From Bacteroidales bacterium (GTDB lineage: Bacteria; Bacteroidota; Bacteroidia; Bacteroidales; WCHB1-69), in NCBI GenBank assembly GCA_017394765.1, contig JAFPXF010000053.1, positions 1 to 23,730 of the forward strand: a stretch of DNA of 23,730 nucleotides, in the 5' to 3' direction. The position numbers and the translations under genes were made by a program. Each line of letters starts with the position of its first letter. Within the stretch, counting starts at the first letter, position 1. This document shows positions 3,261-18,270 of the stretch, piece by piece. The notes under the pieces are model-generated. The model was not told the DNA's origin. It searched no databases and saw nothing but the letters and a program-made list of their open reading frames with translations.

Positions 3261-3291
3261 GTCAAAAAAGAAGAATGGTTTTGAGAAAAAA

Positions 3292-3338: not shown

Positions 3339-3342
3339 CGAC

Positions 3343-4152: not shown

Positions 4153-4166
4153 CCATCGCAGTAAAA

Positions 4167-4221: not shown

Positions 4222-4224
4222 TTG

Positions 4225-4232
4225 TAGTTTTG
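4225..4232 (+). promoter_or_regulatory. -7 promoter motif of the redox operon
   Basis: TAGTTTTG matches TAnnTTTG, 38 nt before the ATG at 4271. The operon genes that follow are all + and closely spaced up to 11991, and no other consensus promoter was seen between them. Confidence 0.6.
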
Positions 4233-4270
4233 CATCGTCAAACAGTTAGAAATCATAAAACATCACCACT

Positions 4271-5116
4271 ATGCAAAACATCAAACTATACAACGGCGTT
4301 GAGATGCCAGTTTTAGGTTACGGAGTGTTCCAAGTGCCGCCGCAAGAGGCGGAGCGTTGCGTGAGCGACGCTTTGAGTGTGGGCTATCGCCTCATCGATA
4401 CCGCACAGGCTTATTTCAATGAGGAAGGCGTTGGCGAGGCTATCGCCAAGTCGGGCGTCATGCGCGAGGACATCTTTCTGGTCACCAAGGTGTGGATCAG
4501 CAACAACGGTGAGGAGAAAGCCGCCCGCAGCATCGACGAGAGCCTGCGCAAGCTGAAGACCGACTATATCGACCTGCTACTCATCCACCAGGCCTACGGC
4601 GACGTGTTCGGCACCTGGCGTGCGATGGAGGACGCTTACCGCGACGGCAAGCTCCGTGCCATCGGCGTGAGCAACTTCCAAGCCGCGCGTTTCTTCGACT
4701 TCGCCCACTATGTGGACATGAAGCCTATGGTGAACCAGCTGCAGTGCAATGCGATGATCCAACAGCGCGGCATCGAGCCTGAACTGGAGGCCTTCGGCAC
4801 CAAGATGATGGCATGGGGACCGCTCGGCGGCCAAGGCGTTGACGGCATCATCAAGAGCGAGCTATTAAGCGGCATCGGCGCCAAGTACGGCAAGACGGCC
4901 TCGCAGGTGGCCCTCCGCTGGCTCACCCAACGCAGCATAGTGGCCATCCCGAAATCAATCCACAAGGAGCGTATGATCCAGAACCTCGACATCTTCGACT
5001 TCACTCTCACCGAGGACGACATGGCGCAAATCGCCACCATGAACCAGATGGACACCGGCAACATCAACTTCAGCGACCCGCAGTTTGTGAAATATTTGAT
5101 TGAAAATTATGGATAA
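4271..5116 (+). CDS. Aldo/keto reductase
   Basis: The 281-aa TIM-barrel enzyme has the full catalytic tetrad: D43 and Y48 (LIDTAQAYFNE), K73 (LVTKVW) and H106 (LLLIHQAYG). The C-terminal NADPH-binding stretch is IVAIPKSIHKERMIQN. It should reduce aldehydes or ketones to alcohols with NADPH in the cytoplasm, similar to 2,5-diketo-gluconate-reductase-type AKRs. It is the first gene of the AraC-linked operon and overlaps or nearly touches the next gene. The substrate cannot be told from sequence; carbonyl detoxification is plausible. Confidence 0.93.
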   Translation: MQNIKLYNGVEMPVLGYGVFQVPPQEAERCVSDALSVGYRLIDTAQAYFNEEGVGEAIAKSGVMREDIFLVTKVWISNNGEEKAARSIDESLRKLKTDYIDLLLIHQAYGDVFGTWRAMEDAYRDGKLRAIGVSNFQAARFFDFAHYVDMKPMVNQLQCNAMIQQRGIEPELEAFGTKMMAWGPLGGQGVDGIIKSELLSGIGAKYGKTASQVALRWLTQRSIVAIPKSIHKERMIQNLDIFDFTLTEDDMAQIATMNQMDTGNINFSDPQFVKYLIENYG

Positions 5117-5651
5117 AACAATCATGCAAGAAACAATAGTTGACCCCCGCAAGATTTCCCCAGAGGAACATGCCGAGGGCGTGCGCCAGGCACAGACTCT
5201 TTTCAAGTTGAACCACACGATGCCTTACACCGATGAATACAACGCCTTGGTGAAAGACCTCTTTCGTGACAACCTCAGTGAAGGCGACTGGATCATGCCC
5301 GGCCTCACCGGTGTCTGTTTCGACAAAGTGAAAATCGGCCGCAACGTGATGATCATGAACAACTGCCTGATGATGGGTCGCGGTGGCATTACCATCGACG
5401 ATGGCGCCATGGTGGCCGCCAATGCGCAGCTCATCTCCAATAACCACGATCTCTACGACCGCCAAATCCTCATCTGCAAACCTGTGCACATCTGCAAGAA
5501 CGTCTGGATTGGCGCAGGAGCCACCATCCTGCCTGGTGTCACCGTGGGCGAGAATGCCGTGGTGGCCGCTGGTGCCGTCGTCACAAAGGATGTGGCACCC
5601 AACACTATCGTGGGCGGCAATCCCGCGAAGTTCATCAAAAACATTGATTAA
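5109..5651 (+). CDS. Sugar O-acetyltransferase (LacA/Maa type hexapeptide)
   Basis: The product of about 180 aa carries a short N-terminal maltose-acetyltransferase-like helix region (SPEEHAEGVRQAQTLFKLNHT), then a left-handed beta-helix of hexapeptide repeats (VKIGRNVMIMNNCLM, VWIGAGATILPGVTVGENAVVAAGAVVTKDV). NNHDLYD carries the likely catalytic His, and the end NPAKFIK is typical of the family. It transfers acetyl from acetyl-CoA to a hydroxyl of a sugar-like acceptor. ATG 5109 overlaps the reductase stop (ATGGATAA); ATG 5124 with an A-rich leader is an equal alternative. Confidence 0.88.
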   Translation: MDKTIMQETIVDPRKISPEEHAEGVRQAQTLFKLNHTMPYTDEYNALVKDLFRDNLSEGDWIMPGLTGVCFDKVKIGRNVMIMNNCLMMGRGGITIDDGAMVAANAQLISNNHDLYDRQILICKPVHICKNVWIGAGATILPGVTVGENAVVAAGAVVTKDVAPNTIVGGNPAKFIKNID

Positions 5652-5688
5652 ATCCCTTGAACTCTTGAACCTTTAAACCCTTTACAAC

Positions 5689-6537
5689 ATGATTTTCGAC
5701 AGAAACGAAAAGAAACAAGTAGTGGCACTGTTGGGTGCCTGCAGTATGGGAACAGCCATTGTGCGTCGCATAGCGGCAGGCAAGAAGATCCTGTTGGGCG
5801 ACATCAGCGAGAAGGCCTTGGAACGCATCGGCGATGACTTCCGTCGCAGCGGGTATGATGTGGAGACCTGCGTGGTGAACGCTCTGGAGAAGGAGAGCAT
5901 AGAGGCTTTTGCCAAGAAGGCAGCTGAACTCGGTCCCGTGATGTACTTCATCGACACGGCAGGTGCATCGCCCAATCAGGCCTCGCCAGAGCATATCGTC
6001 AACCTCGACATGGTGGGTACGGGTTATGCCGTCGATGCCTTCGGCAATGTGATGGCAGAGGGCGGCGCAGGACTGATCATTTCGAGTCAGGCGGCTTATA
6101 TGTACCCCGTCCCCAACGAGGATGAGCTTCAGATTGTGAACGCCACCACCGAGCAACTCTCGGAGCTGCCCATCGTCAAGAATGTTGCCATGCAGAACAG
6201 TGGCTTCGCCTATATGATTGCCAAGCGGGTGAACCACCTGCAGGCGCAACGTGCGGCAGCCACCACGTGGCGCGAGCGTCGTGCCCGCATCAACACCATC
6301 TCGCCAGGCATCATCGTAACGCCTTTGGCTTACGATGAGTTCAATGCCAATGGTGCAGGCTATCAGGCCATGATTGATGCCAGTGCAGCCAGACGCGTGG
6401 CTACCAGCGATGAGATTGCCGATGCCGCTGCGTTCCTCTTGGGCGAACACGCCTCGTTCATCAACGGCATCGACCTGCTTATCGATGGCGGCGTCATTGC
6501 CTCCATCCGCACGGGAATGTTCAAACTACAAGGTTAA
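5689..6537 (+). CDS. SDR family oxidoreductase
   Basis: The 282-aa Rossmann enzyme has a variant nucleotide motif GACSMGTA near residue 16, catalytic S132/S133 (LIISSQAAY) and Y175-x3-K179 (FAYMIAKR). The C-terminal INGIDLLIDGGV is typical of classical SDRs. It probably oxidises or reduces an alcohol/carbonyl with NAD(P) in the cytoplasm. An insertion of about 25 residues between the Ser and Tyr motifs (NEDELQIVNATTEQ region) makes it longer than the usual 250 aa. It is the third gene of the operon, 37 nt after the acetyltransferase. Confidence 0.9.
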   Translation: MIFDRNEKKQVVALLGACSMGTAIVRRIAAGKKILLGDISEKALERIGDDFRRSGYDVETCVVNALEKESIEAFAKKAAELGPVMYFIDTAGASPNQASPEHIVNLDMVGTGYAVDAFGNVMAEGGAGLIISSQAAYMYPVPNEDELQIVNATTEQLSELPIVKNVAMQNSGFAYMIAKRVNHLQAQRAAATTWRERRARINTISPGIIVTPLAYDEFNANGAGYQAMIDASAARRVATSDEIADAAAFLLGEHASFINGIDLLIDGGVIASIRTGMFKLQG

Positions 6538-6549
6538 AAAGGAAAGAAT

Positions 6550-7161
6550 ATGAAAGCAAAAAACATTATCATGGCAGCCCTTGCCTTACTAATGGCCACC
6601 GGCTGCAACGGACAAAGCAAACAAGAAGTCAAACAATCAAACAATAAAGCAATGAGCAAATCAATCGTCATTTTCTTCTCCCATGCGGGCGACAACTACA
6701 GCGTGGGTAATATCGAAGTCGGCAACACCAAGATTGTGGCCGACTATATCAGCGAAATCGCGGGTGCTGAACAGTTTGAAATCGTCACCCACAAGTACGA
6801 CGGCATGGCCTACACGCCGCTCATCAACCTTGCCAAAGAGGAAGCCAACAAAGGCGAGCTGCCGCCTTACGAGGGCAACGCTCCCGACCTCTCGCAGTAC
6901 GACACCGTTTTCATCGGTGGCCCCGTGTGGTGGGGCACCTATCCGCAGGTGATGTTCACGCTGTTCAAGGACATCAACCTCGACGGTAAGACCGTTATCC
7001 CCTTCACCACCCACGAAGGCAGCGGCTTGGCCTCTTGCGTTAGCGATGTGAAAAAGGCTTTCCCGAAAGCCAACGTCACCCAAGGCTTTAGCATCTATGG
7101 CCACGAAGTGCGTAGCGGAAGAGTCAAGGTGGAGAAATGGCTGAAGGGATTGGGATTTTGA
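6550..7161 (+). CDS. Flavodoxin-like lipoprotein
   Basis: The 203-aa product starts with a lipoprotein signal ending LMATGC (C19), then a 15-residue polar linker, then a flavodoxin fold starting at an internal M35 (MSKSIVIFFSHAGDNYSVG). FMN-loop motifs GGPVWWGTYP and THEGSG are present, in the style of the Flavodoxin_4 family. Flavodoxins carry electrons on FMN, usually in the cytosol, so the lipid anchor implies a periplasmic or outer-membrane role. An ATG at 6652 could in principle give a cytosolic form. It follows the SDR by 12 nt. Confidence 0.88.
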   Translation: MKAKNIIMAALALLMATGCNGQSKQEVKQSNNKAMSKSIVIFFSHAGDNYSVGNIEVGNTKIVADYISEIAGAEQFEIVTHKYDGMAYTPLINLAKEEANKGELPPYEGNAPDLSQYDTVFIGGPVWWGTYPQVMFTLFKDINLDGKTVIPFTTHEGSGLASCVSDVKKAFPKANVTQGFSIYGHEVRSGRVKVEKWLKGLGF

Positions 7162-7182
7162 AAACAATAAAAAAACAATACG

Positions 7183-7869
7183 ATGAAGAAGTTAGCATTA
7201 TTTGCATTGGCCGCACTAATATTGTCGGCCTGCAACCAACAAGAAAACCATCAGGACAACACCAATCAAAACACACCTCAAATGAAAACAGAAACGACTA
7301 TTAACGATGTGGCTGGCCGCACGAACTTCGGCTCTAATCATGCCCTCGTGACTACACCCCAGCCTTGCGTGATGATTGCCACTTGGGACAAAGACCACAA
7401 CCCCGACGTGATGATGGCCGCTTGGGCCGGACAACTGGATTATAACCAGATTGTCATCAGCCTCAGCAAACATAAGACCACCGACAATCTTGAACTGACT
7501 GGTGCTTTCACCGTCAGCTTTGCCGACGAGCGCACCGTAGACGAGTCAGATTATTTCGGCCTCGTCAGTGCCAACGATGTGCCCGACAAGGTAGCCCGCA
7601 CTGGCTTTACCTTCATCCCCAGTCCCAACGTGGACGCGCCCATCATCAACGAGTATCCGCTCACATTAGAGTGCCGTGTGGTGAGCTTTGAGGAAGGCAT
7701 GTTGATTGGCGAAGTAATCAACCAAAGCGCCGACGAGAGCATCCTCACCGATGGCAAGGTTGACCTCGCCAAACTCAAGCCCATCGTTTTCGATGCCTCC
7801 GCTATGTGCTACCGTTCCATCGGCGACAGCGTCGGCCAAGCCTGGGGCAGCGGGAAAAAATATCTATAA
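7183..7869 (+). CDS. Flavin reductase-like split-barrel lipoprotein
   Basis: The 228-aa product has a lipoprotein signal (LILSAC, C17), a Gln/Asn-rich linker to residue 33, and then a flavin-reductase-like FMN-binding split barrel starting at internal M34. Visible domain features are PCVMIATWDKDHNPDVMMAAWAG, ISLSKHKTTDNL and SFADERTVDESDYFG. The fold binds FMN and either reduces flavin or acts as a small flavoprotein reductase. It lies 21 nt after the flavodoxin gene, so the two may form one extracytoplasmic electron route. An internal ATG at 7282 would give a form without the anchor. Confidence 0.87.
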   Translation: MKKLALFALAALILSACNQQENHQDNTNQNTPQMKTETTINDVAGRTNFGSNHALVTTPQPCVMIATWDKDHNPDVMMAAWAGQLDYNQIVISLSKHKTTDNLELTGAFTVSFADERTVDESDYFGLVSANDVPDKVARTGFTFIPSPNVDAPIINEYPLTLECRVVSFEEGMLIGEVINQSADESILTDGKVDLAKLKPIVFDASAMCYRSIGDSVGQAWGSGKKYL

Positions 7870-7888
7870 GAATCAAAACATCGAATCA

Positions 7889-8932
7889 ATGAAACGAATT
7901 ATCATAGCATTGCTATTATCAACATCATTATCAGTTATGGCGCAGAAAGAAACTCTCAACCCCTGGGGACTGGTCTATGACGGTGCCCTGACGGAGAACA
8001 TTGCGGGCGAAGTGAACATCCACCCCGTAACTTACATGGTAGACGGCATCAGCGTGGCCGCCAACGTCTATCTGCCCAAGGGCTACGGTCCCAGCAAGCA
8101 GTATCCCGCCGTGGTGGTGAGCCATCCCAACGGGGGCGTGAAGGAACAGGTGAGTGGCATGTTTGCCCAGAAACTTGCGGAAGCAGGTTACGTCACCATC
8201 GCCTGCGATGCCCGCTATCAGGGACAAAGCGGTGGCCTTCCCCGGGGCAACGACATCCCCTTCGTGCGCATGGGCGACATCCACGGCATGATTGACTATA
8301 TCTCACAATTTCCCGGTGTTGACAAGGAGCGCATCGGTGCCCTCGGCATCTGCGGTGGTGGTGGTTATACCGTGGCCGTGGCACAAAGCGACAAGCGCAT
8401 CAAAGCGGTGGCAGCGTTGAGCATGTTCAACACAGGCCGCGTGAGGCGCAACGGCTACTGCGACTCGCAGATAGCCACCATCCAGGAGCGACTCGCACAA
8501 GCCAGTGCTGCACGTCAGCAGGAAGCCGAGACGGGTATGACCGTCTATCCACCTAAGGCCAAGCCCATGATCGAGGAAGAAATTGCAAAACTACCGTTTG
8601 AACTCTACCGCGAAGGACAGTTCTATTATGTCACCTCAAAATATGCCCACGCCAACGATGGTGCCTCGGCTCCCATCAGTTGTCTGCTCGACCTGATGAT
8701 GTGGGATGCCACCGACCGTATGGAATTCATCAACCAGCCTTTGTTGCTGATGGTCGGCGAAAAGGCCGACTCACACTACATGTCGGAAGAGGCCATGCAG
8801 AAAGCCACCGGCACTGACGACAAGGAACTGTTTGTCGTCCCTGGTGCATCGCACATCAAGACCTACTATGTACCCGAATATGTCGAACAGGAACGCGCCA
8901 AGTTGGTGGAGTTTTTCAACAGAAATCTTTAA
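7889..8932 (+). CDS. Secreted alpha/beta hydrolase, DLH-like, Cys nucleophile
   Basis: The product of about 347 aa has a cleavable signal peptide (MKRIIIALLLSTSLSVMAQ, cleavage near A18) and an alpha/beta-hydrolase domain (YPAVVVSHPNGGVKEQ, VTIACDARYQGQSGG). The nucleophile elbow is LGICGGGGY, putting Cys (C155) where most hydrolases have Ser, as in dienelactone hydrolases. A C-terminal GASHIKTY gives the catalytic His. I chose the ATG at 7889 because it begins the signal peptide; the longer frame overlaps the upstream gene. It is likely periplasmic and acts on an ester, thioester or lactone of unknown identity. Confidence 0.88.
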   Translation: MKRIIIALLLSTSLSVMAQKETLNPWGLVYDGALTENIAGEVNIHPVTYMVDGISVAANVYLPKGYGPSKQYPAVVVSHPNGGVKEQVSGMFAQKLAEAGYVTIACDARYQGQSGGLPRGNDIPFVRMGDIHGMIDYISQFPGVDKERIGALGICGGGGYTVAVAQSDKRIKAVAALSMFNTGRVRRNGYCDSQIATIQERLAQASAARQQEAETGMTVYPPKAKPMIEEEIAKLPFELYREGQFYYVTSKYAHANDGASAPISCLLDLMMWDATDRMEFINQPLLLMVGEKADSHYMSEEAMQKATGTDDKELFVVPGASHIKTYYVPEYVEQERAKLVEFFNRNL

Positions 8933-8946
8933 TAACACGCAATTAA

Positions 8947-10059
8947 ATGAAGAAACACCTTATCATTGGAATGTTTGCTGCCGCGTTTGCTTTTGCGGCT
9001 TGCGGCAACAAAACCACTTCCACGGAAAGAGACATGAACACTTTGAGTTTTACCACCGAACAGGCGACCTTCATGTCGGCCATCGCCTGCAACGAGGCCA
9101 AAGCCGACTATGTTGCATTGGCTGAGGCCATCAACAATGGTTTGGATGCCGGCCTGACGGTCAGCCAAGTCAAGGAGGCCCTGAGCCAACTCTATGCCTA
9201 TACTGGATTTCCGCGTTCCTTGAATGCTCTCGGCACCTTGCAGAAGGTGTTGGAGCAACGCCAAAACGAGGGCAAAACCACCGAGGAAGGCGTTGAGGCA
9301 TCGCCACTTCCGAGCAACTACAATGCTTTGGCACAAGGCACCGAGGTTCAAACCGAGGTGAGCGGTCGCCCCTTTGACTTTGCCTTCTCCCCTGCCGAAG
9401 ACTATTACCTGAAAGCCCACCTTTTCGGTGACATTTTCGCCCGCGACAACCTCACCCATGCCGACCGCGAACTCATCACCGTGAGTGCGTTGAGCGGGTT
9501 GGAGAATGTGATGCCACAGTTGCAGGCGCATGTGCGCGGTGCGTTGAATATGGGTGTCAGCGAAAAACAACTGCGCAGCATCCCTGTGGCTTTGAAAACC
9601 AATGGGTTGCAAGCCGAGGCCTTGCGCTGTGAGGCCGCCATCGCTGCCGCTGTGGATGGTAAGACGGATGTGGCGTGCGCCCAGTCGCCTTGGCCAATTG
9701 GTGAACTAAACACGGCATACGCCCAGTATTTCATCGGCAACAGCTATTTGGCTCCGATGGACGGAGGCATGGCCAACGTCACCTTCGAGCCCGGTTGCCG
9801 CAACAATTGGCATATCCATCATAACATGGTGCAGGTGTTGGTGTGCGTGAGCGGCAGAGGCTGGTATCAGGAATGGGGCAAGGAGCCTGTGGAGTTGAAG
9901 CCCGGCGTGATCATCGCCATCCCCGAAGGCGCGAAGCACTGGCATGGTGCCGCCAAAGACAGCTGGATGCAGCATCTCACCTATCATACCGACGTGAAAG
10001 GCAATCCAAGCAACGAATGGCTTGAGGCCGTAGATGATGAACAGTATAACAAACTATAA
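8947..10059 (+). CDS. Carboxymuconolactone decarboxylase-cupin fusion lipoprotein
   Basis: The 370-aa product has a lipoprotein signal (FAFAAC, C19) and three domains. The first CMD-like domain spans about 35-110. The second, about 150-235 (HADRELITVSALSGLENVMPQLQAHVRGALNMG), matches the gamma-CMD pattern. A cupin follows at about 265-350 with metal ligands H289/H291 and HWH at 331-333 (IPEGAKHWHG). No AhpD-type CxxC is present, so peroxidase activity is unlikely. CMD-cupin proteins are usually cytosolic; here the anchor places it outside. Internal M30 (ATG 9034) starts the CMD domain. It is 14 nt after the hydrolase. Confidence 0.87.
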   Translation: MKKHLIIGMFAAAFAFAACGNKTTSTERDMNTLSFTTEQATFMSAIACNEAKADYVALAEAINNGLDAGLTVSQVKEALSQLYAYTGFPRSLNALGTLQKVLEQRQNEGKTTEEGVEASPLPSNYNALAQGTEVQTEVSGRPFDFAFSPAEDYYLKAHLFGDIFARDNLTHADRELITVSALSGLENVMPQLQAHVRGALNMGVSEKQLRSIPVALKTNGLQAEALRCEAAIAAAVDGKTDVACAQSPWPIGELNTAYAQYFIGNSYLAPMDGGMANVTFEPGCRNNWHIHHNMVQVLVCVSGRGWYQEWGKEPVELKPGVIIAIPEGAKHWHGAAKDSWMQHLTYHTDVKGNPSNEWLEAVDDEQYNKL

Positions 10060-10062
10060 ACG

Positions 10063-11076
10063 ATGAAAACAAAAACTATCATTATCGCAGCATTCTCACT
10101 GCTTTTCGCCGTGAGCTGCGCAGGACAATCCAACAAATCGCAAACTACTGAAAACATGGAAAATACAACGACACCCGAACAGAAGGAATCGGTCGTTTAC
10201 ATGACCACAGAAATCACACCCGATGCACTCATCCGTGTTTACGAAGCCCTTGGCGTGAAAGCCGAAGGCCGCGTGGCCGTGAAGATCAGCACGGGCGAGT
10301 CACAACATTCGAACCATCTGAGGCCGGAGTTCATCAAGAGCTTTGTGCAGAGCGCCAACGGCACCATCGTGGAGTGCAACACGGCCTACGAAGGCAGCCG
10401 TAACAACACCGAGAAGCACAGACAAGCCATCGCAGAACGCGGCTACGGCGACATTGCCATGGTGGATATCATGGACGAGGATGGCGAGATGAAGCTTCCC
10501 GTGCGCGACACCACCTACATGAAATACAACATCGTGGGCGACCATTTGCAGAACTACGATTTCATGATCAACCTCGCACACTTCAAGGGTCACCAGATGG
10601 CTGGTTTCGGTGGTGTGCTGAAGAACCAGAGCATCGGCGTGGCCTCGTCGAACGGCAAGGCGTACATCCATTCTAACGGCCTGACTGAAGATGCTAACCA
10701 CCTTTGGGAGAATATCCATCCCGAGAACCAGGACAAATTCATCGAGTGCATGGCCACCGCCGCCGCTGCCGTAGCCGACTATTTTGGCGACAAAATTATC
10801 TACATCGCCGTGATGAACAACATCTCCATCGACTGCGACTGCAACGGACATCCCGCCAAGCCCGAGCTGAAGGACATGGGCATCCTGGCCTCCACCGACC
10901 CTGTTGCGCTTGACCAGGCCTGCATCGACCAAGTGTATCGCCACCAAAACGTGGAAGGCGATGATGCCACTTCGCTCATCAACCGTATCGAAGACCGCCA
11001 CGGTCTTCACATTCTCGAACACGCCGAGAAAATCGGATTGGGCTCGAGACAATACAAGATGGTGCATTTGCATTAA
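10063..11076 (+). CDS. DUF362 domain lipoprotein
   Basis: The 337-aa product has a lipoprotein signal (LLFAVSC, C19) and a DUF362 domain over most of its length. Family features are AHFKGHQMAGFGGVLKNQSIG, NISIDCDCNGHPAKPELKDMG and DPVALDQACID. DUF362 often accompanies ferredoxin domains, but none is fused here and the activity is unknown. An internal ATG at 10156 opens MENTTTPEQKE before the domain. It follows the CMD-cupin gene by only 3 nt, so translation is probably coupled. It lies just before the transporter. Confidence 0.88.
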   Translation: MKTKTIIIAAFSLLFAVSCAGQSNKSQTTENMENTTTPEQKESVVYMTTEITPDALIRVYEALGVKAEGRVAVKISTGESQHSNHLRPEFIKSFVQSANGTIVECNTAYEGSRNNTEKHRQAIAERGYGDIAMVDIMDEDGEMKLPVRDTTYMKYNIVGDHLQNYDFMINLAHFKGHQMAGFGGVLKNQSIGVASSNGKAYIHSNGLTEDANHLWENIHPENQDKFIECMATAAAAVADYFGDKIIYIAVMNNISIDCDCNGHPAKPELKDMGILASTDPVALDQACIDQVYRHQNVEGDDATSLINRIEDRHGLHILEHAEKIGLGSRQYKMVHLH

Positions 11077-11079
11077 GCA

Positions 11080-11991
11080 ATGGAGTTTTGCCGCATGAAA
11101 ACGGGAAAACAAAACAAGTCTTCTTTCGGTCCGATACTCATCATTCTGGCGGGCATCTTCTGGGGCAGCATGGGCATTTTTGTCCGAAGGCTTGCCGAGT
11201 ATGGTTTCACTCCCATCCAGATTGTTTGCATCCGTGTGGTGCTGGCGGCGTTGATATTTAGCGTGATACAGCTCGTCAAAGACCCCAAAGGATTCAGGAT
11301 TTCCCTGCGCGACATCCCGCTCTTTCTCGGCCTTGGACTTGGCAGCATACTCTTCTTCACGGTGTGCTATTTTACGGCCATCTCGATGATGACGCTCTCC
11401 ACAGCGGCTATTCTGCTTTATACCTCGCCTATCTGGATCATGCTGATGTCGCTGCTGTTCTTCCATGAGAAGCTGGCGGTGCGGAAAGTCCTCGCCCTTG
11501 CGCTTGCCTTTGGTGGGTGCGTGCTGGTATCCGGCATCTCGGGCGGAGGTCTGACCTTGACGGGGTTCCTTGTCGGTCTCGGCGCCGGTGTGGGTTACGG
11601 ATTGTACAGCATTCTCGGCACCGTCGCTCTAAGGCGTTACTCGCCATACACCGTCACCACTTGGACATTTGTTATTGCGGCCATCGGCTCCATCCTGATG
11701 AGCCATCCGGCGGATATGGTTGCGAAATGCGCTGCCGCCCCGTCGCAGCTTGGTCTATGGGGCTTCGGTCTGTTGACGGCCTTGGTGACGGCAGTCATTC
11801 CATTCCTCGCTTACACGCTCGGCCTACGCAGCGTCGAAGCCAGCAAAGCAGGCATCCTTGCTACGGTGGAACCGATGGTGGCCACGCTGATTGGAGTTTT
11901 GGTGTTTTCCGAACCCTTGACCCTCATGTCGGGACTTGGTGTGCTGCTGATTCTGGCAGCGGTGGTGATTCTGAATGTTTCCAAGGAATAA
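11080..11991 (+). CDS. EamA/DMT family transporter
   Basis: The 303-aa protein has about ten hydrophobic segments in two EamA repeats (GPILIILAGIFWGSMGIFVRR and the second half from GFLVGLGAGVGYGLYSILG). LGLRSVEASKAGILATVEP is a typical C-terminal EamA stretch. DMT-superfamily carriers export or import small metabolites; the substrate is unknown. It starts 3 nt after DUF362 (ATG 11095 is an alternative) and is the likely last gene of the operon, perhaps exporting a detoxified product. Confidence 0.9.
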   Translation: MEFCRMKTGKQNKSSFGPILIILAGIFWGSMGIFVRRLAEYGFTPIQIVCIRVVLAALIFSVIQLVKDPKGFRISLRDIPLFLGLGLGSILFFTVCYFTAISMMTLSTAAILLYTSPIWIMLMSLLFFHEKLAVRKVLALALAFGGCVLVSGISGGGLTLTGFLVGLGAGVGYGLYSILGTVALRRYSPYTVTTWTFVIAAIGSILMSHPADMVAKCAAAPSQLGLWGFGLLTALVTAVIPFLAYTLGLRSVEASKAGILATVEPMVATLIGVLVFSEPLTLMSGLGVLLILAAVVILNVSKE

Positions 11992-11992
11992 A

Positions 11993-12019
11993 CGAAGGCT
12001 GGGGTTGCGTATTTATTTG
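11993..12019 (+). repeat. Hairpin element copy 3, 3' half only, fused to promoter
   Basis: CGAAGGCTGGGGTTGCG followed by TATTTATTTG matches the loop and right arm of the repeated hairpin family directly after the transporter stop. The left arm is missing, being replaced by the gene's own 3' end, so the full stem cannot form. Like copy 2 it runs straight into a TAnnTTTG motif (12020). Confidence 0.55.
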
Positions 12020-12027
12020 TACTTTTG
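12020..12027 (+). promoter_or_regulatory. -7 promoter motif of the flavoprotein gene
   Basis: TACTTTTG matches TAnnTTTG, 18 nt before the ATG at 12046. It implies that the flavoprotein/AlkZ-related pair is transcribed separately from the redox operon. Confidence 0.6.
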
Positions 12028-12045
12028 TCGCAAAACTGAATCAAT

Positions 12046-12663
12046 ATGAAAGCATTACTCATCAACGGAAGTCCACACGTCAACGGTTGCACGGCGACTG
12101 CCTTGGGCATTGTGGCAAAGGAATTGGAAAAGAACGGCATTGAGGCCGAAATCGCCCATGTCGGCAATAAGAACATCCGTGGTTGCATCGCCTGCATCAA
12201 GTGTCAGCAGACGGGTCGTTGCGTGTTCAACGACATGGTGAACGAGCTGGCTCCGAAGTTCGAGGAGGCCGATGCCTTGGTTATTGGTTCGCCGGTGTAT
12301 TACGCTGGAATGGCGGGCACGATGAATTCCTTCCTCGACCGCCTCTTCTTCAGCACACCATTCAGCAAGCGCATGAAGGTGGGTGCCGCCGTCAGTTCGG
12401 CGCGTCGTGCGGGCACCACCGCCACCTTCGACCAGTTGAACAAGTATTTCACCATCAGTGAGATGCCCGTTGCCTCGGGACGTTATTGGAACATGGTGCA
12501 TGGTTATTCGATGGAAGATGTGATGCGCGACGAGGAAGGTGTTCAAAACCTCCGCATCCTTGCCCGCAACATTGCCTTCCTTGTCAAAGCCATCGCCGCC
12601 GAGAAGGAGAGGAACGGCCTGCCGGAGAAAGAAGAGATTGTGTTCACGAACTTTATCAGATAA
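12046..12663 (+). CDS. Iron-sulfur flavoprotein (Isf-like, flavodoxin fold)
   Basis: The 205-aa product has an NADPH-dependent FMN reductase/flavodoxin fold (MKALLINGSPHVNGCTATAL as phosphate-binding loop; VIGSPVYYAGMAG). It carries a compact cysteine motif C47-x2-C50-x2-C53-x5-C59, matching the CX2CX2CX4-7C pattern known for 4Fe-4S clusters in Isf proteins. Such enzymes shuttle electrons to quinones, peroxide or O2. It is cytosolic, with no signal. A separate promoter sits at 12020, and the AlkZ-related gene follows 3 nt after its stop. Confidence 0.87.
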   Translation: MKALLINGSPHVNGCTATALGIVAKELEKNGIEAEIAHVGNKNIRGCIACIKCQQTGRCVFNDMVNELAPKFEEADALVIGSPVYYAGMAGTMNSFLDRLFFSTPFSKRMKVGAAVSSARRAGTTATFDQLNKYFTISEMPVASGRYWNMVHGYSMEDVMRDEEGVQNLRILARNIAFLVKAIAAEKERNGLPEKEEIVFTNFIR

Positions 12664-12666
12664 AAC

Positions 12667-13311
12667 TTGAATTCCGAACCATATATATGCAATGCCGAGA
12701 CGATGGAGCGCGCCATCCGTGAGGTGGGCATCATCCCGTTTTTCAAGAGCGACATTCCAGGGTATTCCATCAAGGAACTGACGCTGCCAGAGTTTTGGTT
12801 CGACGGCGAAGAGGACACGCTCGGCCCATGGGACTGGAAGATCGACTGCCTCGAGAGCGGCGACATCGCTTACGGGAAATACCTCTGCGGGAGTAAGGCC
12901 GCCTTCGCGACGATGCCGTTCTACCGCGAGCTGATGAACCTTCGTCGTGCGACTACCCAACCCGACAAAGACGGACAAAAGATCATGGAATATCTTGCTC
13001 AGCGAGGCAGCATCACTATCAAGGAGGTGCGGGCCTTGTTAGGTGTAAAGAAAGGCGCCGCCGATGCCGCCATCGCGAAGCTGCAGCACCAATGTCGCGT
13101 CGTCACGGGTGTGATTGAGCGTGTATACCGTGGCCCCGAGCAGACCTACAACGGCTGGCAGGTCTCATACTTCTGCACGCCGGAGTCGCTGTTCGAAGAC
13201 GCGCTCCAATCCAACCACACACCCGAGGAATCGCAGGAATTCTTGACAGACCACATCGCTAAGTTGTTCCCAGAGGCTACGCACAAGCAGCTATTGAAGG
13301 TGCTGAGGTGA
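12667..13311 (+). CDS. AlkZ-related protein (winged-helix)
   Basis: The 214-aa protein resembles the uncharacterised AlkZ-related family as I remember it: YICNAETMERAIREVGIIPFFKSDIPG near the N-terminus, then PEFWFDGEEDTLGPWDWK and AYGKYLCGSKAAF. A winged-helix-like middle follows (GSITIKEVRALLGVKKGAADAAIAKLQ). AlkZ/YcaQ enzymes unhook DNA crosslinks, but the catalytic QxQ/D is not obvious here, so activity is uncertain. The likely start is TTG 12667, because the conserved SEPYICNAET stretch precedes the first ATG (12703). It is coupled to the flavoprotein gene. Confidence 0.7.
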   Translation: MNSEPYICNAETMERAIREVGIIPFFKSDIPGYSIKELTLPEFWFDGEEDTLGPWDWKIDCLESGDIAYGKYLCGSKAAFATMPFYRELMNLRRATTQPDKDGQKIMEYLAQRGSITIKEVRALLGVKKGAADAAIAKLQHQCRVVTGVIERVYRGPEQTYNGWQVSYFCTPESLFEDALQSNHTPEESQEFLTDHIAKLFPEATHKQLLKVLR

Positions 13312-13321
13312 TTAAGGGAAT

Positions 13322-13360
13322 CCGCGACTTGGGCGAAGACCTGGGTTGCGGTTTTTTTTT
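13322..13360 (+). terminator. Hairpin element copy 4, terminator of AlkZ-related gene
   Basis: Outer stem CCGCGAC (13322-13328)/GTTGCGG (13345-13351) and inner stem TTGGGC/ACCTGG, with one C-A mismatch next to the GAAG loop, are followed by nine T. It lies 10 nt after the gene and is a strong + strand rho-independent terminator of the repeated family. Confidence 0.85.
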
Positions 13361-13436: not shown

Positions 13437-14096
13437 TTAATAAGCAGCGGTAAAACGCTCCTTGTGGTGGTTCTCCTGCTCCAATTCATCGACCATCGCC
13501 ACGGCGTAGTCCTCGACGGAGATGAAGCTCTCGCCTTTCTCATCAAAGAGCATGTCGTCCTTGCCCAAACGATATTTGCCTGTGCGCACACCCGTGGTCA
13601 TGTTGCCGAGGTTGCCTGCGGGTGAGAAGAAAACCCAGTCGATGTCGTTCTCTTTCATCAGGGTGTTGAGGTAGAACTCGCCAAGACTCTTCACACCGGG
13701 CAGCCATGCTTCTGGCAGCGTGCCGGTATCGACAAGGCGCACGCCCGGCTTTACAAACAAAGTGCCTGCACCTCCCACAATCAGCAGACGGCGCACACCC
13801 GCTTGCTTGGCACCCTCGACAATCTTCGGATAGTTCTCTAACGTGTCCTCATATTGGCGAGGATTGGCCCAACCCGGGTTGTAGGCACTGACAATGGCAT
13901 CCTTGCCTTTGGCTATTTTGGCCAACTCTGCAGGATTGGTAGCATCGGCCACCACGTACTCAATCAGTGGATTCTTCACTTTGACGCTTTCCATGTTGCG
14001 CACGATGGCCGTCACCTTGTGACCGCGCATCACCAGTTCGTTCAAAAGGGCACTGCCCACGAAGCCTGTGGCTCCAATCAATACTACGTTTTTCAT
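13437..14096 (-). CDS. NAD(P)-binding oxidoreductase (atypical SDR, NmrA-like)
   Basis: The 219-aa protein begins with a Rossmann motif (KNVVLIGATGFVGSALL; GATGFVG at 8-14), then NAD(P)-discriminating IVRNMESVK and ADATNPAELAKIAKG, and later GVRRLLIVGGAGTLFV. It lacks the YxxxK of classical SDRs, fitting atypical SDRs that act as NAD(P)H-binding reductases or redox sensors. It is divergent from an HxlR regulator, a pairing common for QorB-type enzymes. The promoter at 14141-14148 is flanked by the likely HxlR operator. Confidence 0.88.
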   Translation of the reverse strand: MKNVVLIGATGFVGSALLNELVMRGHKVTAIVRNMESVKVKNPLIEYVVADATNPAELAKIAKGKDAIVSAYNPGWANPRQYEDTLENYPKIVEGAKQAGVRRLLIVGGAGTLFVKPGVRLVDTGTLPEAWLPGVKSLGEFYLNTLMKENDIDWVFFSPAGNLGNMTTGVRTGKYRLGKDDMLFDEKGESFISVEDYAVAMVDELEQENHHKERFTAAY

Positions 14097-14148: not shown

Positions 14149-14163
14149 GTTACTTTCAGTAAC
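14149..14163. promoter_or_regulatory. Likely HxlR operator GTTACT-N3-AGTAAC
   Basis: GTTACT (14149-14154) and AGTAAC (14158-14163) form a perfect inverted repeat touching the -7 motif of the divergent oxidoreductase gene. Another GGTTAC half lies at 14193-14198. HxlR proteins bind symmetric sites as dimers. Position in the core promoter suggests repression of the oxidoreductase. Confidence 0.6.
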
Positions 14164-14287: not shown

Positions 14288-14295
14288 TACTTTTG
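14288..14295 (+). promoter_or_regulatory. -7 promoter motif of the HxlR-sirtuin operon
   Basis: TACTTTTG matches TAnnTTTG and ends 4 nt before the ATG at 14300. Transcription would start about at the start codon, so the mRNA is predicted to be leaderless. Confidence 0.6.
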
Positions 14296-14299: not shown

Positions 14300-14650
14300 A
14301 TGAGAAAGATAAACAAGCCCGTTGACCCCAACTATTTGGAATGTCCCATCCGCAACGTGATTGAGAAGTTTGGCGACAAATGGTCGCTTTTGGTATTGTA
14401 TCACCTCGACGCGCACGGGACGATGCGGTTCAACAGCATCCATCGCGACATGGCCGACTGCTCGCAGAAGATGCTGTCGCAGACGCTCAAACGGTTAGAG
14501 CAATTGCACCTAATCAGCCGCAGACTCTATCCAGAGGTGCCGCCCCGCGTTGAGTATGCGCTTACGGAGACCGGCAAAAGCCTGATGCCCCACATCAAAT
14601 CCCTTATCGACTGGGCGAAGGCACATTCCGCCGAAATGATGAGTCATTGA
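14300..14650 (+). CDS. HxlR family transcriptional regulator
   Basis: The 116-aa winged-helix protein has all family hallmarks: CPIRNVIEKFGDKWSLLVLYHL, RFNSIHRDMADCSQKMLSQTLKRLE and YPEVPPRVEYALTETGKSLMP. The cysteine C14 in the ECPIRNV segment sits where many HxlR proteins (HypR, QorR) sense thiol or electrophile stress. I chose the ATG at 14300; an upstream in-frame alternative start lies within the promoter motif. It leads the PNPOx-sirtuin-macrodomain operon and is divergent from an oxidoreductase, so it may control both. Confidence 0.92.
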   Translation: MRKINKPVDPNYLECPIRNVIEKFGDKWSLLVLYHLDAHGTMRFNSIHRDMADCSQKMLSQTLKRLEQLHLISRRLYPEVPPRVEYALTETGKSLMPHIKSLIDWAKAHSAEMMSH

Positions 14651-14665
14651 AAGCAACATCGAATT

Positions 14666-15139
14666 ATGGAAAAAACAGACATCATAAAGAAAGCATTCGA
14701 TTTCCTTCGCGAGAACAACGAGGGAGTGCTGGCAACGGACAGCGAGGGCAAGCCCTGCCTGCGGGCCTTCCAAATCATGAAACAAGAAGGTGAAACGCTC
14801 TACTTCGCCACCGCGCCGCAGAAAGAGGTGTACCGACAACTGCAAGGCAACCCCAATATCGAGTTTATGGTGCTGCATGGCAAGGTCAGTGTGCGCTGCT
14901 CGGGCACGGCTCTTTTCGACGTGGACGACGAGACCTGCCGCTGGATCTACGACAACAACCCCGTGCTGCCGCGACTTTACACCTCCTATGACAAGTTGGT
15001 GTACTTCCGGATGCCTGTTGAGCATCTGGAATACTTCGACCTGCGTTCCACGCCGCCCGAGGTGCTTCATTATGACAGCAATACCGACACGGTGGAAGGC
15101 GGTTTCGCCGGGGAACGGTTCGGTATATACAAAGCATAA
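14666..15139 (+). CDS. Pyridoxamine 5'-phosphate oxidase-like flavoprotein
   Basis: The 157-aa split-barrel protein has PNPOx-family features: FLRENNEGVLATDSEGKPCLRAFQIMKQEG, LYFATAPQKEVYRQLQGNPNIEF and GKVSVRCSGTALFDVDDE. Small members bind FMN or F420 and reduce varied substrates; true pyridoxamine oxidase activity is unlikely at this length. It lies 15 nt after HxlR and 13 nt before the sirtuin gene. Rack et al. (2015, from memory) describe SirTM operons with flavin oxidoreductases, so a flavoprotein here is in keeping. Confidence 0.87.
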   Translation: MEKTDIIKKAFDFLRENNEGVLATDSEGKPCLRAFQIMKQEGETLYFATAPQKEVYRQLQGNPNIEFMVLHGKVSVRCSGTALFDVDDETCRWIYDNNPVLPRLYTSYDKLVYFRMPVEHLEYFDLRSTPPEVLHYDSNTDTVEGGFAGERFGIYKA

Positions 15140-15152
15140 ACCATTCAAAGTC

Positions 15153-15986
15153 ATGGAAAACATAAAAAAACTATTTGATACACTCCAATCCGCCGATACC
15201 GTCATAGTCGGTGCTGGTGCCGGTCTCTCGACGGCAGCGGGTTTCACCTATTCGGGAGAACGGTTCAAGAGGCATTTCGCCGATTTCATCGAAAAATACG
15301 GTTTCACCGACATGTATACAGCGGGCTTCTACAACTTCCCTACCCAAGAAGAGTTTTGGGCCTACTGGAGCCGCCATATCTATTTTAACCGCTATGTGCC
15401 CGCCCCGAAACCAGTCTATGGCAACCTGCTCAAACTCTTGAAAGGCAAGGACTATTTCGTCATCACCACCAATGTGGACCATCAGTTCCAGAAGGCAGGG
15501 TTTGACAAACAGCGGCTGTTTTACACCCAAGGCGACTATGGTCTGTTCCAATGCGCAAAGCCTTGTCACCAAAAGACCTACGACAACGAGGAGGTCGTCA
15601 CACGGATGGTCGCCGAACAAGAGGATATGCGCATCCCTTTGGAACTGGTGCCGAAATGTCCTGTCTGTGGCGGCAAAATGGTTCCCAACCTGCGTTCGGA
15701 TGCCACCTTTGTGCAAGACGAAGGCTGGCATGCTGCCGCGCAACGCTACCTCGACTTCGTGAACAGCTACCAAAAAGGCAAAGTCCTCTATTGGGACTTG
15801 GGCATCGGTGCCAACACCCCGACCATCATCAAACTGCCGTTCATGCAGATGACCTACAAGAATCCCGAGGCGACCTACGCCACCGTCAACCTCGGCGAGG
15901 CATTCACCGTGGAACAGATTCAGGACCGTTCCATCGTGATTGATGCGGATATTGCCGTTGTTTTGGAAGAAATGTTGAAATTATGA
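15153..15986 (+). CDS. Class M sirtuin (SirTM), predicted protein ADP-ribosyltransferase
   Basis: The 277-aa Rossmann protein keeps the NAD site (GAGAGLSTAAG at 20-30, TTNVDHQ with N107/D109, LGIGANTP at 217-224) and a zinc ribbon C134/C138/C169/C172. At the position of the deacetylase catalytic His it has QGDYG (Q126), the signature reported for SirTMs, which ADP-ribosylate rather than deacylate. Its gene overlaps the macrodomain gene by 4 nt (ATGA at 15983), the writer/eraser linkage typical of the class. Known SirTM operons carry a GcvH-L target and LplA2; neither is present here, so the target is open. Confidence 0.9.
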   Translation: MENIKKLFDTLQSADTVIVGAGAGLSTAAGFTYSGERFKRHFADFIEKYGFTDMYTAGFYNFPTQEEFWAYWSRHIYFNRYVPAPKPVYGNLLKLLKGKDYFVITTNVDHQFQKAGFDKQRLFYTQGDYGLFQCAKPCHQKTYDNEEVVTRMVAEQEDMRIPLELVPKCPVCGGKMVPNLRSDATFVQDEGWHAAAQRYLDFVNSYQKGKVLYWDLGIGANTPTIIKLPFMQMTYKNPEATYATVNLGEAFTVEQIQDRSIVIDADIAVVLEEMLKL

Positions 15987-16738
15987 ACCGTTTAGACACC
16001 TTAATCAAAACCCTCATTGACGAAGATCTGCAGTTTTCGGAACTTCAAATCCCGAATGACCTGCAAGGCAAACGCGACCTGTTCCGTGCCTTGCGCAATG
16101 TGCGTTGGCCAAAACCTATCAGCGAGGAGTTCCTACGTTTGCAGGACGAGGAATTGCAGGAGCAATTGAATGAAAAGGGCATTGTGGAATTGCCCGATGT
16201 GCCGATGCAGATTTGGCAAGGCGACATTACGCGCCTCAAGGTGGATGCCATCGTGAACGCGGCCAATAGCCAGATGTTAGGCTGCTTCCATCCTTTGCAC
16301 AAATGCATTGACAACGCTATCCATTCGGCTGCGGGAGTGCAACTGCGCGAAGAATGTCATAAGTTGATGCTCCAGCAAGGCCATGAAGAGCCGACTGGCC
16401 AGGCCAAAATCACCAAGGCCTATAACCTGCCCTGCAAGTACGTCATTCATACGGTCGGCCCCATCATCCCCAACGGCATTCCAACGGATTTCCAAAAAGA
16501 ACAACTGGCTTCATGTTATCGAAACATCATGGCTTGTGCCGATGAAAACGGCCTTGAAAGCGTCGCGTTCTGCTGCATCTCCACAGGTGAGTTCCGTTTC
16601 CCGAACGAATTGGCAGCGGAAATTGCCATCAAAACAGTAAAAGATTACCTATCGGCACATCCTTTTGTCAGTTTGAAGCACATTGTTTTCAATGTGTTCA
16701 AGGATGTGGATAAGGAAATCTATCAACGGCTTCTATGA
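15983..16738 (+). CDS. Zinc-type macrodomain protein, predicted ADP-ribosyl hydrolase
   Basis: The 251-aa protein has an extended helical N-terminus (about 1-75) and a macrodomain (about 76-250). Visible motifs are WQGDITRLKVDAIVNAANSQ, TVGP at 157-160 and CCISTGEFRFP. The loop after N95 reads GCFHPLHKCIDNAIHSAAG. C101, H103/H106 and C108 there are candidate ligands of the catalytic zinc described for SirTM-linked macrodomains. It should remove ADP-ribose placed by the adjacent SirTM. Overlap with the sirtuin stop implies coupled translation. A family hairpin terminator follows. Confidence 0.9.
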   Translation: MNRLDTLIKTLIDEDLQFSELQIPNDLQGKRDLFRALRNVRWPKPISEEFLRLQDEELQEQLNEKGIVELPDVPMQIWQGDITRLKVDAIVNAANSQMLGCFHPLHKCIDNAIHSAAGVQLREECHKLMLQQGHEEPTGQAKITKAYNLPCKYVIHTVGPIIPNGIPTDFQKEQLASCYRNIMACADENGLESVAFCCISTGEFRFPNELAAEIAIKTVKDYLSAHPFVSLKHIVFNVFKDVDKEIYQRLL

Positions 16739-16748
16739 TTGAAGAAAT

Positions 16749-16787
16749 CCGCAATTCAGGCGAAGGCTTGGGTTGCGGTTTTTTTTT
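16749..16787 (+). terminator. Hairpin element copy 6, terminator fused to next promoter
   Basis: Outer stem CCGCAAT/GTTGCGG (16749-16755, 16772-16778), inner stem TCAGGC/GCTTGG and GAAG loop are fully paired, followed by nine T. It closes the sirtuin operon. Its tail continues into the TTTCTTTG motif (16789) of the peptidase gene, so the same block both ends and starts transcription. Confidence 0.85.
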
Positions 16788-16788
16788 G

Positions 16789-16796
16789 TTTCTTTG
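16789..16796 (+). promoter_or_regulatory. Weak -7 motif of the metallopeptidase gene
   Basis: TTTCTTTG, one base from TAnnTTTG, lies 22 nt before the ATG at 16819. A TTG in the hairpin right arm (16768-16770) lies 18 nt upstream, near -33. Confidence 0.4.
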
Positions 16797-16818
16797 CAGC
16801 ATCAAATACAGTAATACA

Positions 16819-18270
16819 ATGAAAGCACACACCATAGCAATTATTGCGGCATCCCTTTTGTTTGCTGGCTGCAATAGAGGACCAACCGAAACTCAACAGG
16901 ACAATGCCCACTTTGCCTATCAACTCGACTGGAACAATGCTGGGATTGATGTCAGCCTGACCCTCACCCATCCCGAGACGGACACGATGACCTTGTATTA
17001 TTGCGACGACTCGTGGGGCGGGCAGAAAGACATCTTCACCTGTGTGAAGGACTTGCAGGCCGATGGCTGCACCGTACTTCCCGACAGTGCCCATTTTAAG
17101 ATACAACTCGTTGATTTCAAAAAACGGCCCATACAACTGACCTATCGCATTGAGCAGTCGCTACCCGACACGGGTATCAACTGTCCTTCGGAAGTGTTCC
17201 GTCCCAACATGACAAACGACATGCTCTATGGGTTGGGGGTGCATTTCTTCTTCCTGCCCGACACTCAAGGCGAGATTTCCTATCCGATGCAGGTGCGCTG
17301 GGGTAACAAGCCCGATTTTCCAGTGTTCTGCCTCTACAATGCAGGCAAAGGCTTGGAGGATTACGAAGGCGAAACTGCTGGTTTTGTCAACACAGTCATT
17401 GTGGGCGACCGAGGGTTGCACATCGATACGGTCATTTATTCGAGGGTGACCAACTATGTAGTGACCGCTCCACGACAGTTAGCCGAATACAACGATGCCT
17501 CGTTGAAAGACTTCTTGCGTCTCTTTTACGCCTCGGCCTTGCGTTTCTGGGAGCAGACTCCCGACAGCCCCTATACGCTCATCGTCTATCCTTTTGCCAA
17601 GATACCTTTTGAGGTCACCGGGTTAGGGATGGATGGCGGCTTCTGCGCCCGCTATAGTGCCCAAGCCGACACCATCCTGAACCATGAGCGGGAACAGACC
17701 TTTGCCCACGAAATCGGGCACAACTGGATTGGCTTTGGTGGCGATTTCCAATGGTTTGGCGAGGGCTTCAACGACTTCCAGTCCATCTATCTCGTCACGG
17801 CATCGGGCTTGCAGGGGACGCAAAACTTCATCGACTTCTTCAATGATTATTTAGACAAACTCCAACGCAGCGAGATTCGAAATCTGCCCAATGCGGAGAT
17901 TGAGGAGCATTTTTGGGAATTGGGCGACTACAGTTGGATACCCTATTGGCGCGGCTCAATCTATGCCTTGCGGTTGATGGGCATGATTGAAGCCCAGACG
18001 GGTACGGAACATGCTTTCAAGGACTTGATGATGGCCGTGAAGCCCTCGATGGACACGCTGACTTCGGATTTGTTCCTCGACATCGCCAGCCGGTTCGTTG
18101 ACCAGCAGCTGCTCCATGCCGATTTTGAGCGATACATCCTCAATGCTGAGACGATGACCCTCGAAGGCGACCCGATGCCAACAGGCTGCGAAGTGCGCTA
18201 CAAGGATGATGGCACGCCTTATTTGGTCATCACGGACAAAGAGAAGTTCGCTCGGCATTTCGTGCTGTGA
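16819..18270 (+). CDS. M1/M61-like zinc metallopeptidase lipoprotein
   Basis: The product of about 483 aa has a lipoprotein signal (LLFAGC, C18), an N-terminal beta-rich region (about 30-215) like that of M1/M61 enzymes, and a gluzincin centre H297-E298-x2-H301 (HEIGHNW) with WFGEGFNDF giving E315. The gap between HExxH and this Glu is 13 residues, shorter than the 18 usual in M1. It is predicted to be a surface or periplasmic peptidase. I chose ATG 16819 because it begins the signal; the 28 residues before it in the longer frame merely translate hairpin copy 6. It stands alone with its own promoter. Confidence 0.82.
   Translation: MKAHTIAIIAASLLFAGCNRGPTETQQDNAHFAYQLDWNNAGIDVSLTLTHPETDTMTLYYCDDSWGGQKDIFTCVKDLQADGCTVLPDSAHFKIQLVDFKKRPIQLTYRIEQSLPDTGINCPSEVFRPNMTNDMLYGLGVHFFFLPDTQGEISYPMQVRWGNKPDFPVFCLYNAGKGLEDYEGETAGFVNTVIVGDRGLHIDTVIYSRVTNYVVTAPRQLAEYNDASLKDFLRLFYASALRFWEQTPDSPYTLIVYPFAKIPFEVTGLGMDGGFCARYSAQADTILNHEREQTFAHEIGHNWIGFGGDFQWFGEGFNDFQSIYLVTASGLQGTQNFIDFFNDYLDKLQRSEIRNLPNAEIEEHFWELGDYSWIPYWRGSIYALRLMGMIEAQTGTEHAFKDLMMAVKPSMDTLTSDLFLDIASRFVDQQLLHADFERYILNAETMTLEGDPMPTGCEVRYKDDGTPYLVITDKEKFARHFVL

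Follow-up and report, generated by a model that had tools for sequence, protein, structure and literature searches.

What does a class M sirtuin (SirTM) mark with ADP-ribose when its gene stands beside a Zn-macrodomain gene and the lipoyl carrier GcvH-L is not found nearby? This question is raised by a four-gene unit in the 23,730-nucleotide stretch analysed here (the window: positions 1-23,730 of contig JAFPXF010000053.1, assembly GCA_017394765.1), which comes from a gut-type Bacteroidales bacterium (WCHB1-69). The unit encodes an HxlR-family regulator, a PNPOx-like flavin mononucleotide (FMN) split-barrel protein, SirTM and a Zn-macrodomain ADP-ribosyl hydrolase (Table 1). On balance we favor a reading in which it is an electrophile- or redox-stress transcription unit controlled by HxlR, whose ADP-ribosylation pair acts on a redox protein other than GcvH-L; another redox protein is proposed as substrate because GcvH-L and LplA2 were not found in the window. 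The new element here is the recurrent company of HxlR and PNPOx that the SirTM/macrodomain pair keeps, not the operon class.

The arrangement is the one described by an earlier, sequence-only reading of the window. Coordinates together with Pfam and NCBIfam matches confirm the four genes, with gaps of 15 nt between HxlR and PNPOx and of 13 nt between PNPOx and SirTM, and a 4-nt overlap between the SirTM and macrodomain genes. The SirTM gene thus adjoins a Zn-macrodomain gene, as expected of a class M sirtuin. That reading had also seen QGDYG in place of the catalytic His, and this is borne out: the motif starts at SirTM residue 126, its Gln aligns with the QG of the best solved relative, 5a3a (E 8.9e-67), which we take to be SpySirTM, and N107, Q126 and R181 are invariant, position 126 being Gln in all 138 relatives at or above 250 bits. 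The QG replacement and Asn, Gln and Arg residues are named for SirTM in Rack 2015 (PMC4518038). The zinc motif in the macrodomain catalytic loop is described in Ariza 2024 (PMC11490716). The GCFHPLHKC loop reported for the window macrodomain is present at residues 100-108; its Cys101, His106 and Cys108 are kept without exception by the 128 relatives at or above 150 bits, the protein-ADP-ribose hydrolase model NF003163 is matched above its cut-off, and the closest solved relatives are the Zn-macrodomain entries 8rsi and 5kiv. Judged by these conserved residues, SirTM and the Zn-macrodomain protein very probably form a writer/eraser pair. SirTM would use NAD+ to ADP-ribosylate a partner protein, probably on an acidic residue, and the Zn-macrodomain would remove the mark, the two together working as an on/off switch.

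Two published operon classes contain such pairs. GcvH-L and LplA2 are part of the "extended" operons of Lactobacillales and Staphylococcaceae, and SirTM/Zn-macrodomain pairs without GcvH-L are called "independent operons", with targets stated to be unknown (Rack 2015 PMC4518038; Ariza 2024 PMC11490716). When GcvH and LplA profiles (drawn from the loci of 6 of 14 and 9 of 13 relatives, respectively) were run against the six frames of the window, no match was obtained (best E 3 and 1.3) and the controls worked, which bears out the claim that neither GcvH-L nor LplA2 is present there. Because SirTM and the macrodomain gene are adjacent and GcvH-L and LplA2 were not found in the window, the unit is assigned by its gene content to the published independent class. 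It shares with that class a class M sirtuin adjoining a Zn-macrodomain, and differs from it by adding the HxlR and PNPOx-like partners. The idea that HxlR and PNPOx stand "instead of" GcvH-L and LplA in an undescribed type of operon had therefore to be given up, lone pairs in independent operons being known since 2015; what is novel is limited to the partner genes. Compared with the extended operons of S. aureus and S. pyogenes, the window has the same pair near flavin-dependent oxidoreductases and an oxidative-stress link, but it carries a PNPOx-like split barrel and HxlR, and neither GcvH-L and LplA2 nor OYE and LLM were found. For the last two (PF00724 and PF00296) this negative comes from Pfam scans of 20 window proteins.

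Are these partners more than chance neighbors? In a phylum-wide search SirTM was found in one of 395 Bacteroidota genomes, the sole match being the genome at the search center (G001). This is too few for statistics, and family and class samples were therefore used: SirTM is present in 37 of 173 genomes of the family to which the genome of relative locus L001 belongs, and, in an even draw of 391 genomes from the class of a Lachnospiraceae genome (that of locus L070), taken to be Clostridia, it is present in 67. In the even draw, the distance to SirTM was measured for every PNPOx_N match and every HxlR match (E <=1e-10) in 62 of the 67 SirTM genomes, the fragmentary G597, G610, G644, G776 and G955 being left out; the null was a uniform placement of each genome's own matches, kinship among genomes being uncorrected. 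Of these 62 genomes, 35 have HxlR no more than 6 kb from SirTM (0.44 expected), upstream and divergent in 35 of 35, and 22 have PNPOx within 3 kb (0.30 expected), with 24 of 24 matches upstream and on the same strand; both are near SirTM in 18 of 62. In the family sample, an HxlR gene occurs in 17 of the 37 SirTM genomes versus 18 of the 136 others. The sequence-only reading had taken HxlR and PNPOx for meaningful partners, and the figures agree with it, both being far over-represented beside SirTM.

We also examined 80 loci retained from a scan that found 534 relatives, L001-L055 being Bacteroidales-type, many apparently from the ruminant gut, and L056-L080 mainly from Clostridia and Coriobacteria. 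Gene names in the census of 81 loci (window included), in the class-draw loci and in the ACGX operon layouts given below come from custom iterated profiles; some 'PNPOx' tags of these profiles have no PF01243 match (e.g. L170, L182), and the PNPOx counts use Pfam searches alone. In L001-L003, SirTM has PNPOx immediately before it (313-318 bits); L010, L032, L033 and L040 carry a more distant PNPOx on the upstream side (171-189 bits). The expectation that the four-gene order would be conserved across Bacteroidales had to be dropped, since the exact order did not turn up in any of the 80 relatives examined. The nearest match is L040, with HxlR, FMN reductase (PF03358), PNPOx, SirTM and macrodomain genes; L033 reads HxlR, NmrA-type, PNPOx, leucine-rich repeat (LRR), SirTM, macrodomain. 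Redox genes occupy the upstream slot in L040 (FMN reductase), L033 (NmrA-type) and L180 (nitroreductase, PF00881), and a zinc-type quinone-reductase-like gene does so in L007 (TIGR02824, 170 bits, below the cut-off). In the census, HxlR was placed by a custom profile within 4 kb upstream of SirTM in 24 of 81 loci, and within 4 kb downstream in none. A set of 50 relatives gave PNPOx near SirTM in 18 (0.18 expected) and HxlR (matches of at least 40 bits) within 4 kb in 21 (0.19 expected); this set is biased, having been picked from the 80 after the PNPOx carriers were known, and its PNPOx count fell from 20 to 18 on exclusion of L077 and L063, whose rows were on the wrong contig.

Several observations on the same loci are worth recording. 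The LRR-type protein between PNPOx and SirTM is small and is found in L010, L032 and L033 (160 aa in L033, PF13306). In L012, a Nim-type PNPOx protein is encoded directly upstream of SirTM at 3067-3552 (NimIJ model 155 bits, below the cut-off of 270). Weak matches to the HxlR model (22-23 bits, below the 40-bit threshold and so not counted) occur about 1.5 kb downstream of SirTM in G001, G007 and G498; the one inspected, in L001, is a MarR-type gene by custom profile. Fourteen of the 81 loci encode a metallo-beta-lactamase-like protein no more than 2 kb upstream of SirTM, in several of them between HxlR and SirTM; in L011 (7132-7920) it has 262 aa and no Pfam match, and its fold was assigned by eye. 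In locus L221 two SirTM-like genes stand in tandem; they are 34% identical to the query and have no macrodomain match nearby.

Such variety could be explained by co-regulation only: SirTM and the macrodomain would have landed repeatedly in HxlR-regulated stress islands, with no functional dependence on their neighbors. The partners indeed vary (metallo-beta-lactamase-like, cupin, FMN reductase, NmrA-type). PNPOx adjacency changes at least 23 times on a quick SirTM tree (141 rows, 119 labeled: 39 with PNPOx adjacent, 80 without), so that the link recurs and does not descend from one event. Yet position and orientation are fixed, in 35 of 35 and 24 of 24 cases, at 70-80 times the expected rate, which argues for selection for co-expression, although not by itself for a writer-substrate relation. 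We consider co-regulation alone unlikely.

The nature of the two partners is consistent with the HxlR-controlled redox unit that we favor. The N-terminal Cys of the window HxlR (C15) is kept in 49 of 52 relatives (at least 40 bits) and aligns with a Cys of HxlR 7bze; solved relatives include HxlR, YybR (presumably HypR), YodB and QsrR. Regulators of the HxlR/YodB/HypR/QsrR type sense electrophiles, with a sensing role for the conserved Cys. Like these systems with their flavin or quinone reductases, the window sets a Cys-bearing HxlR beside flavoprotein and NAD(P)H-reductase-like genes; it differs by the added ADP-ribosylation pair. Redox-stress regulation by this HxlR is likely, and the redox control put forward in the sequence-only reading is plausible in view of the conserved Cys, from which we infer sensing. 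As for the PNPOx-like protein, its predicted structure (pLDDT 93.7) has the split-barrel fold. The best Foldseek E values range from 5e-9 to 1e-6 among the 50 matches listed, all PNPOx-type or split-barrel by title or known kinship, including FMN split-barrel, general-stress-protein-26, NimC/NimA-type, and F420- and heme-binding proteins. FMN is a candidate cofactor, but given these last relatives F420 or heme may serve as well.

Put together, stress would be met by HxlR through the conserved Cys15, the four-gene unit would be expressed, and the pair would switch a redox protein. As a local substrate, the most likely is the FMN split-barrel protein of the same unit or else a thiol carrier served by it. 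That SirTM has here a different target, as suggested in the sequence-only reading, is a reasonable idea.

A rival target would be a lipoylated protein whose gene lies elsewhere, canonical GcvH or some other one, HxlR and PNPOx being merely co-regulated stress genes. GcvH and LplA were searched in the genomes of 14 relatives and, for the source organism, in the window. Exactly one GcvH was found in 14 of 14 genomes (open frames of 126-142 aa) and exactly one LplA in 13, none in the other, so that lipoylated carriers probably exist; in the three relatives' loci inspected, GcvH is beside VanZ-like and TonB-like genes (named by eye). The macrodomain sequence may weigh against such a target. It reads PIIPNG where 5kiv reads PQIRRL, which puts PN at the position of an Arg pair at this one site, with numbering partly assumed: we take 5kiv to be SauMacro, with a 6-residue offset, and its Arg pair to be the presumed GcvH-L contact. 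Canonical GcvHs, too, often carry an acidic residue at the Asp27 position, which speaks for such a target, but when GcvH-L and canonical GcvHs were both lipoylated, SirTMs showed 'absolute selectivity' for GcvH-L (Rack 2015 PMC4518038), and Zn-macrodomains from lone pairs or fusions do not take the mark off GcvH-L (Ariza 2024 PMC11490716). We hold a canonical carrier to be quite improbable as the target. Among the 62 class-draw loci, the sole GcvH-like open reading frame beside SirTM is in L207 (3116-3964), where a DGC domain is joined to a GcvH domain; no macrodomain match was found in the stretch of L207 examined.

The reading of the window as an HxlR-controlled redox switch has to face several facts that weigh against it. 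In the even draw, neither HxlR nor PNPOx is near SirTM in 23 of 62 genomes. HxlR is 3.5 kb off in L002 and L003, and none was found near L001, three loci with PNPOx next to SirTM. PNPOx lies within 3 kb upstream in 9 of the loci L001-L055 (27 of the 55 covered, 37 of the 55 having 3 kb of upstream sequence). HxlR directly adjoins the macrodomain-SirTM genes, no gene being called in the interval, in at least five loci (L177, L195, L200, L213, L225), and PNPOx is therefore not a required partner. Finally, GcvH-L was the sole protein modified among the operon proteins tested in an extended operon (Rack 2015 PMC4518038), which speaks against a neighboring flavoprotein as substrate and made us lower our estimate for PNPOx. 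An obligate partnership of SirTM with PNPOx, which is near it in 22 of 62 genomes only, was dropped as a proposal. PNPOx stays a local candidate target in the window, and that it is itself the SirTM substrate seems to us rather doubtful.

Another candidate comes from a group of SirTM operons that carry a radical S-adenosylmethionine (SAM) gene, TIGR04340 (593.8 bits in L180, cut-off 400), which with the peptide TIGR04341 makes up the ACGX system of the NCBIfam models. TIGR04340 exceeds its cut-off in 15 of the 391 genomes of the class draw, all 15 among the 67 that are SirTM-positive (P 7.8e-13, uncorrected for kinship), and in 6 of the 173 genomes of the L001 family, 5 of them SirTM-positive (P 0.0018), the exception being G471; the sub-cut-off rows of the SirTM-negative G708, G775 and G943 were not counted as ACGX. 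Cys-rich ACGX-repeat peptides were seen in 16 SirTM/macrodomain loci (L007, L012, L045, L065, L169, L178-L180, L184-L187, L189, L190, L194, L205), 14 of which also show a radical SAM/SPASM gene in the stretch examined; the two peptides checked are both TIGR04341. With variations, and in its fullest form, the operon runs HxlR, ACGX peptide, radical SAM enzyme, nitroreductase (or a quinone-reductase-like protein) and PNPOx-ferredoxin, and ends with macrodomain then SirTM in Clostridia and SirTM then macrodomain in Bacteroidales.

These associations open the possibility that the natural substrate of this branch is the radical SAM-modified, Cys-rich ACGX-repeat peptide, and that the window is a reduced relative acting on a similar, unrecognized small carrier. 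In 12 of the 15 class-draw genomes TIGR04340 is on the SirTM contig and strand, 1.4-3.7 kb away, but in 3 of 15 it is on other contigs; L065 and L185 have the peptide with no radical SAM match in the stretch examined, and G471 has the enzyme with no SirTM detected. As 52 of the 67 SirTM genomes have no TIGR04340, ACGX cannot be the only partner. In the window neither peptide nor radical SAM enzyme gave a match (best E for the latter 0.9), and the enzyme was not found in G001-G003, the nearest relatives' genomes, in which the peptide was not searched genome-wide. The window shares with the ACGX system HxlR, a PNPOx-type protein and, in most loci seen, the Zn-macrodomain and SirTM; it holds a minimal form of the operon, without ACGX. 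We regard a reduced ACGX relative as an improbable account of the window itself. In the other members, the ACGX peptide would be at least as good a candidate substrate as PNPOx.

Returning to the unit as such, its borders are consistent with co-transcription. It is bounded by terminators at 13331 and at 16748-16787 (Table 1), and in L001 one copy of this same terminator precedes the PNPOx, SirTM and macrodomain genes and a second follows them, a -7-like box (by eye) lying before PNPOx, so that PNPOx and the pair look like one unit there. The consensus of the Bacteroidetes -7 box is TAnnTTTG; no TTTG was found at the canonical -33 spacing from the box at 14288. The divergent gene beside HxlR is presumably QorB-like, and this divergent pair recurs in L002 and L003. 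The palindrome between them has 3 matches in 1.99 Mb of loci, where chance alone would give about 1.9, and its support therefore comes from its conserved position only; being common to the window, L002 and L003 alone, it was dropped as a general HxlR operator.

Table 1. Positions of the four genes and of the elements flanking them in the window.
Feature	Position	Strand	Details
HxlR-family regulator	14300..14650	+	116 aa; PF01638 102.7 bits; conserved Cys15
PNPOx-like FMN split-barrel protein	14666..15139	+	157 aa; PF01243 (PNPOx_N) 41.8 bits
Class M sirtuin (SirTM)	15153..15986	+	277 aa; SIR2 by Pfam/NCBIfam; Gln126 at catalytic-His position
Zn-macrodomain ADP-ribosyl hydrolase	15983..16738	+	251 aa; Macro; NF003163 protein-ADP-ribose hydrolase 350.9 bits, cut-off 272
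Intrinsic-terminator core, stereotyped	13331..13351	+	after AlkZ-like + strand gene (end 13311); core match with <=2 mismatches, then T run
NAD(P)H-binding NmrA-type gene	13437..14096	-	divergent, beside HxlR; PF13460 95.6 bits
GTTAC-TTTCA-GTAAC palindrome, putative HxlR operator	14149..14163	.	15 nt; between HxlR and divergent NmrA-type gene; same position in L002, L003
TACTTTTG box	14288..14295	+	fits Bacteroidetes -7 box
Terminator hairpin and T run	16748..16787	+	directly after macrodomain gene; -25.6 kcal/mol for 16740-16790

The G-U-rich intrinsic terminator, roughly CCGCAAYTCGGGCGAAGGCTTGGGTTGCGG and then a T run, has five cores in the window, all on the + strand (1687, 3301, 13331, 16758, 18289), and 21 copies in 8 of 56 Bacteroidales loci, window included; it looks like a lineage-specific family of repeated terminators. 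Upstream, an AraC regulator is followed by a long + strand series of genes (3343-13311), most of them with redox or detoxification roles (aldo/keto reductase, SDR, flavodoxin, flavin reductase-like, CMD/cupin, DUF362, FMN reductase), and clusters resembling it recur near SirTM in L033, L042, L051 and L075. After the operon, an open reading frame at 16810-18270 encodes a 486-aa lipoprotein-like protein with a HEIGH motif and no Pfam match, a metallopeptidase by eye. A cassette of thioredoxin-like (by eye), DsbD-like and ArsP permease genes, found at 5305-7439 in L001 and 5306-7440 in L003, separates HxlR from PNPOx in L002 and L003; in L001 it precedes PNPOx, and it is absent from the window. 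The MarR-type gene of L001 mentioned above lies at 10258-10905, beside a gene of the glutathione-peroxidase cluster.

In the open-licence PubMed Central literature, we found no paper joining SirTM or a macrodomain with HxlR, none on a macrodomain-sirtuin-pyridoxamine operon or on radical SAM/SPASM with a sirtuin or macrodomain, and none on ACGX with radical SAM or on TIGR04340, for which there are only the NCBIfam models; "ACGX" alone returned other subjects, by title. SirTM with flavoprotein returned one S. aureus small RNA paper, judged by its title and the opening of its abstract, and term searches of Rack 2015 (PMC4518038) and Ariza 2024 (PMC11490716) gave no mention of pyridoxamine.

A wider picture can be proposed, tentatively and as clearly less likely than not. 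Lone SirTM/Zn-macrodomain pairs would often not be lone, and would serve an HxlR-controlled thiol/flavin electron-transfer system of gut anaerobes as its ADP-ribosylation switch. In its full form the switch would target the radical SAM-modified, Cys-rich ACGX-repeat peptide, which would play the part of lipoyl-GcvH-L and hand electrons to the nitroreductase and PNPOx-ferredoxin; in the minimal form of the window, the FMN split-barrel protein, or an unrecognized carrier that it serves, would take the mark. Through the orientation-fixed HxlR and PNPOx partners in two phyla and the link to ACGX, the target of the pair now has named candidate substrates, and the question becomes testable with a few purified proteins. 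ACGX peptides, for their part, would gain a first link to function.

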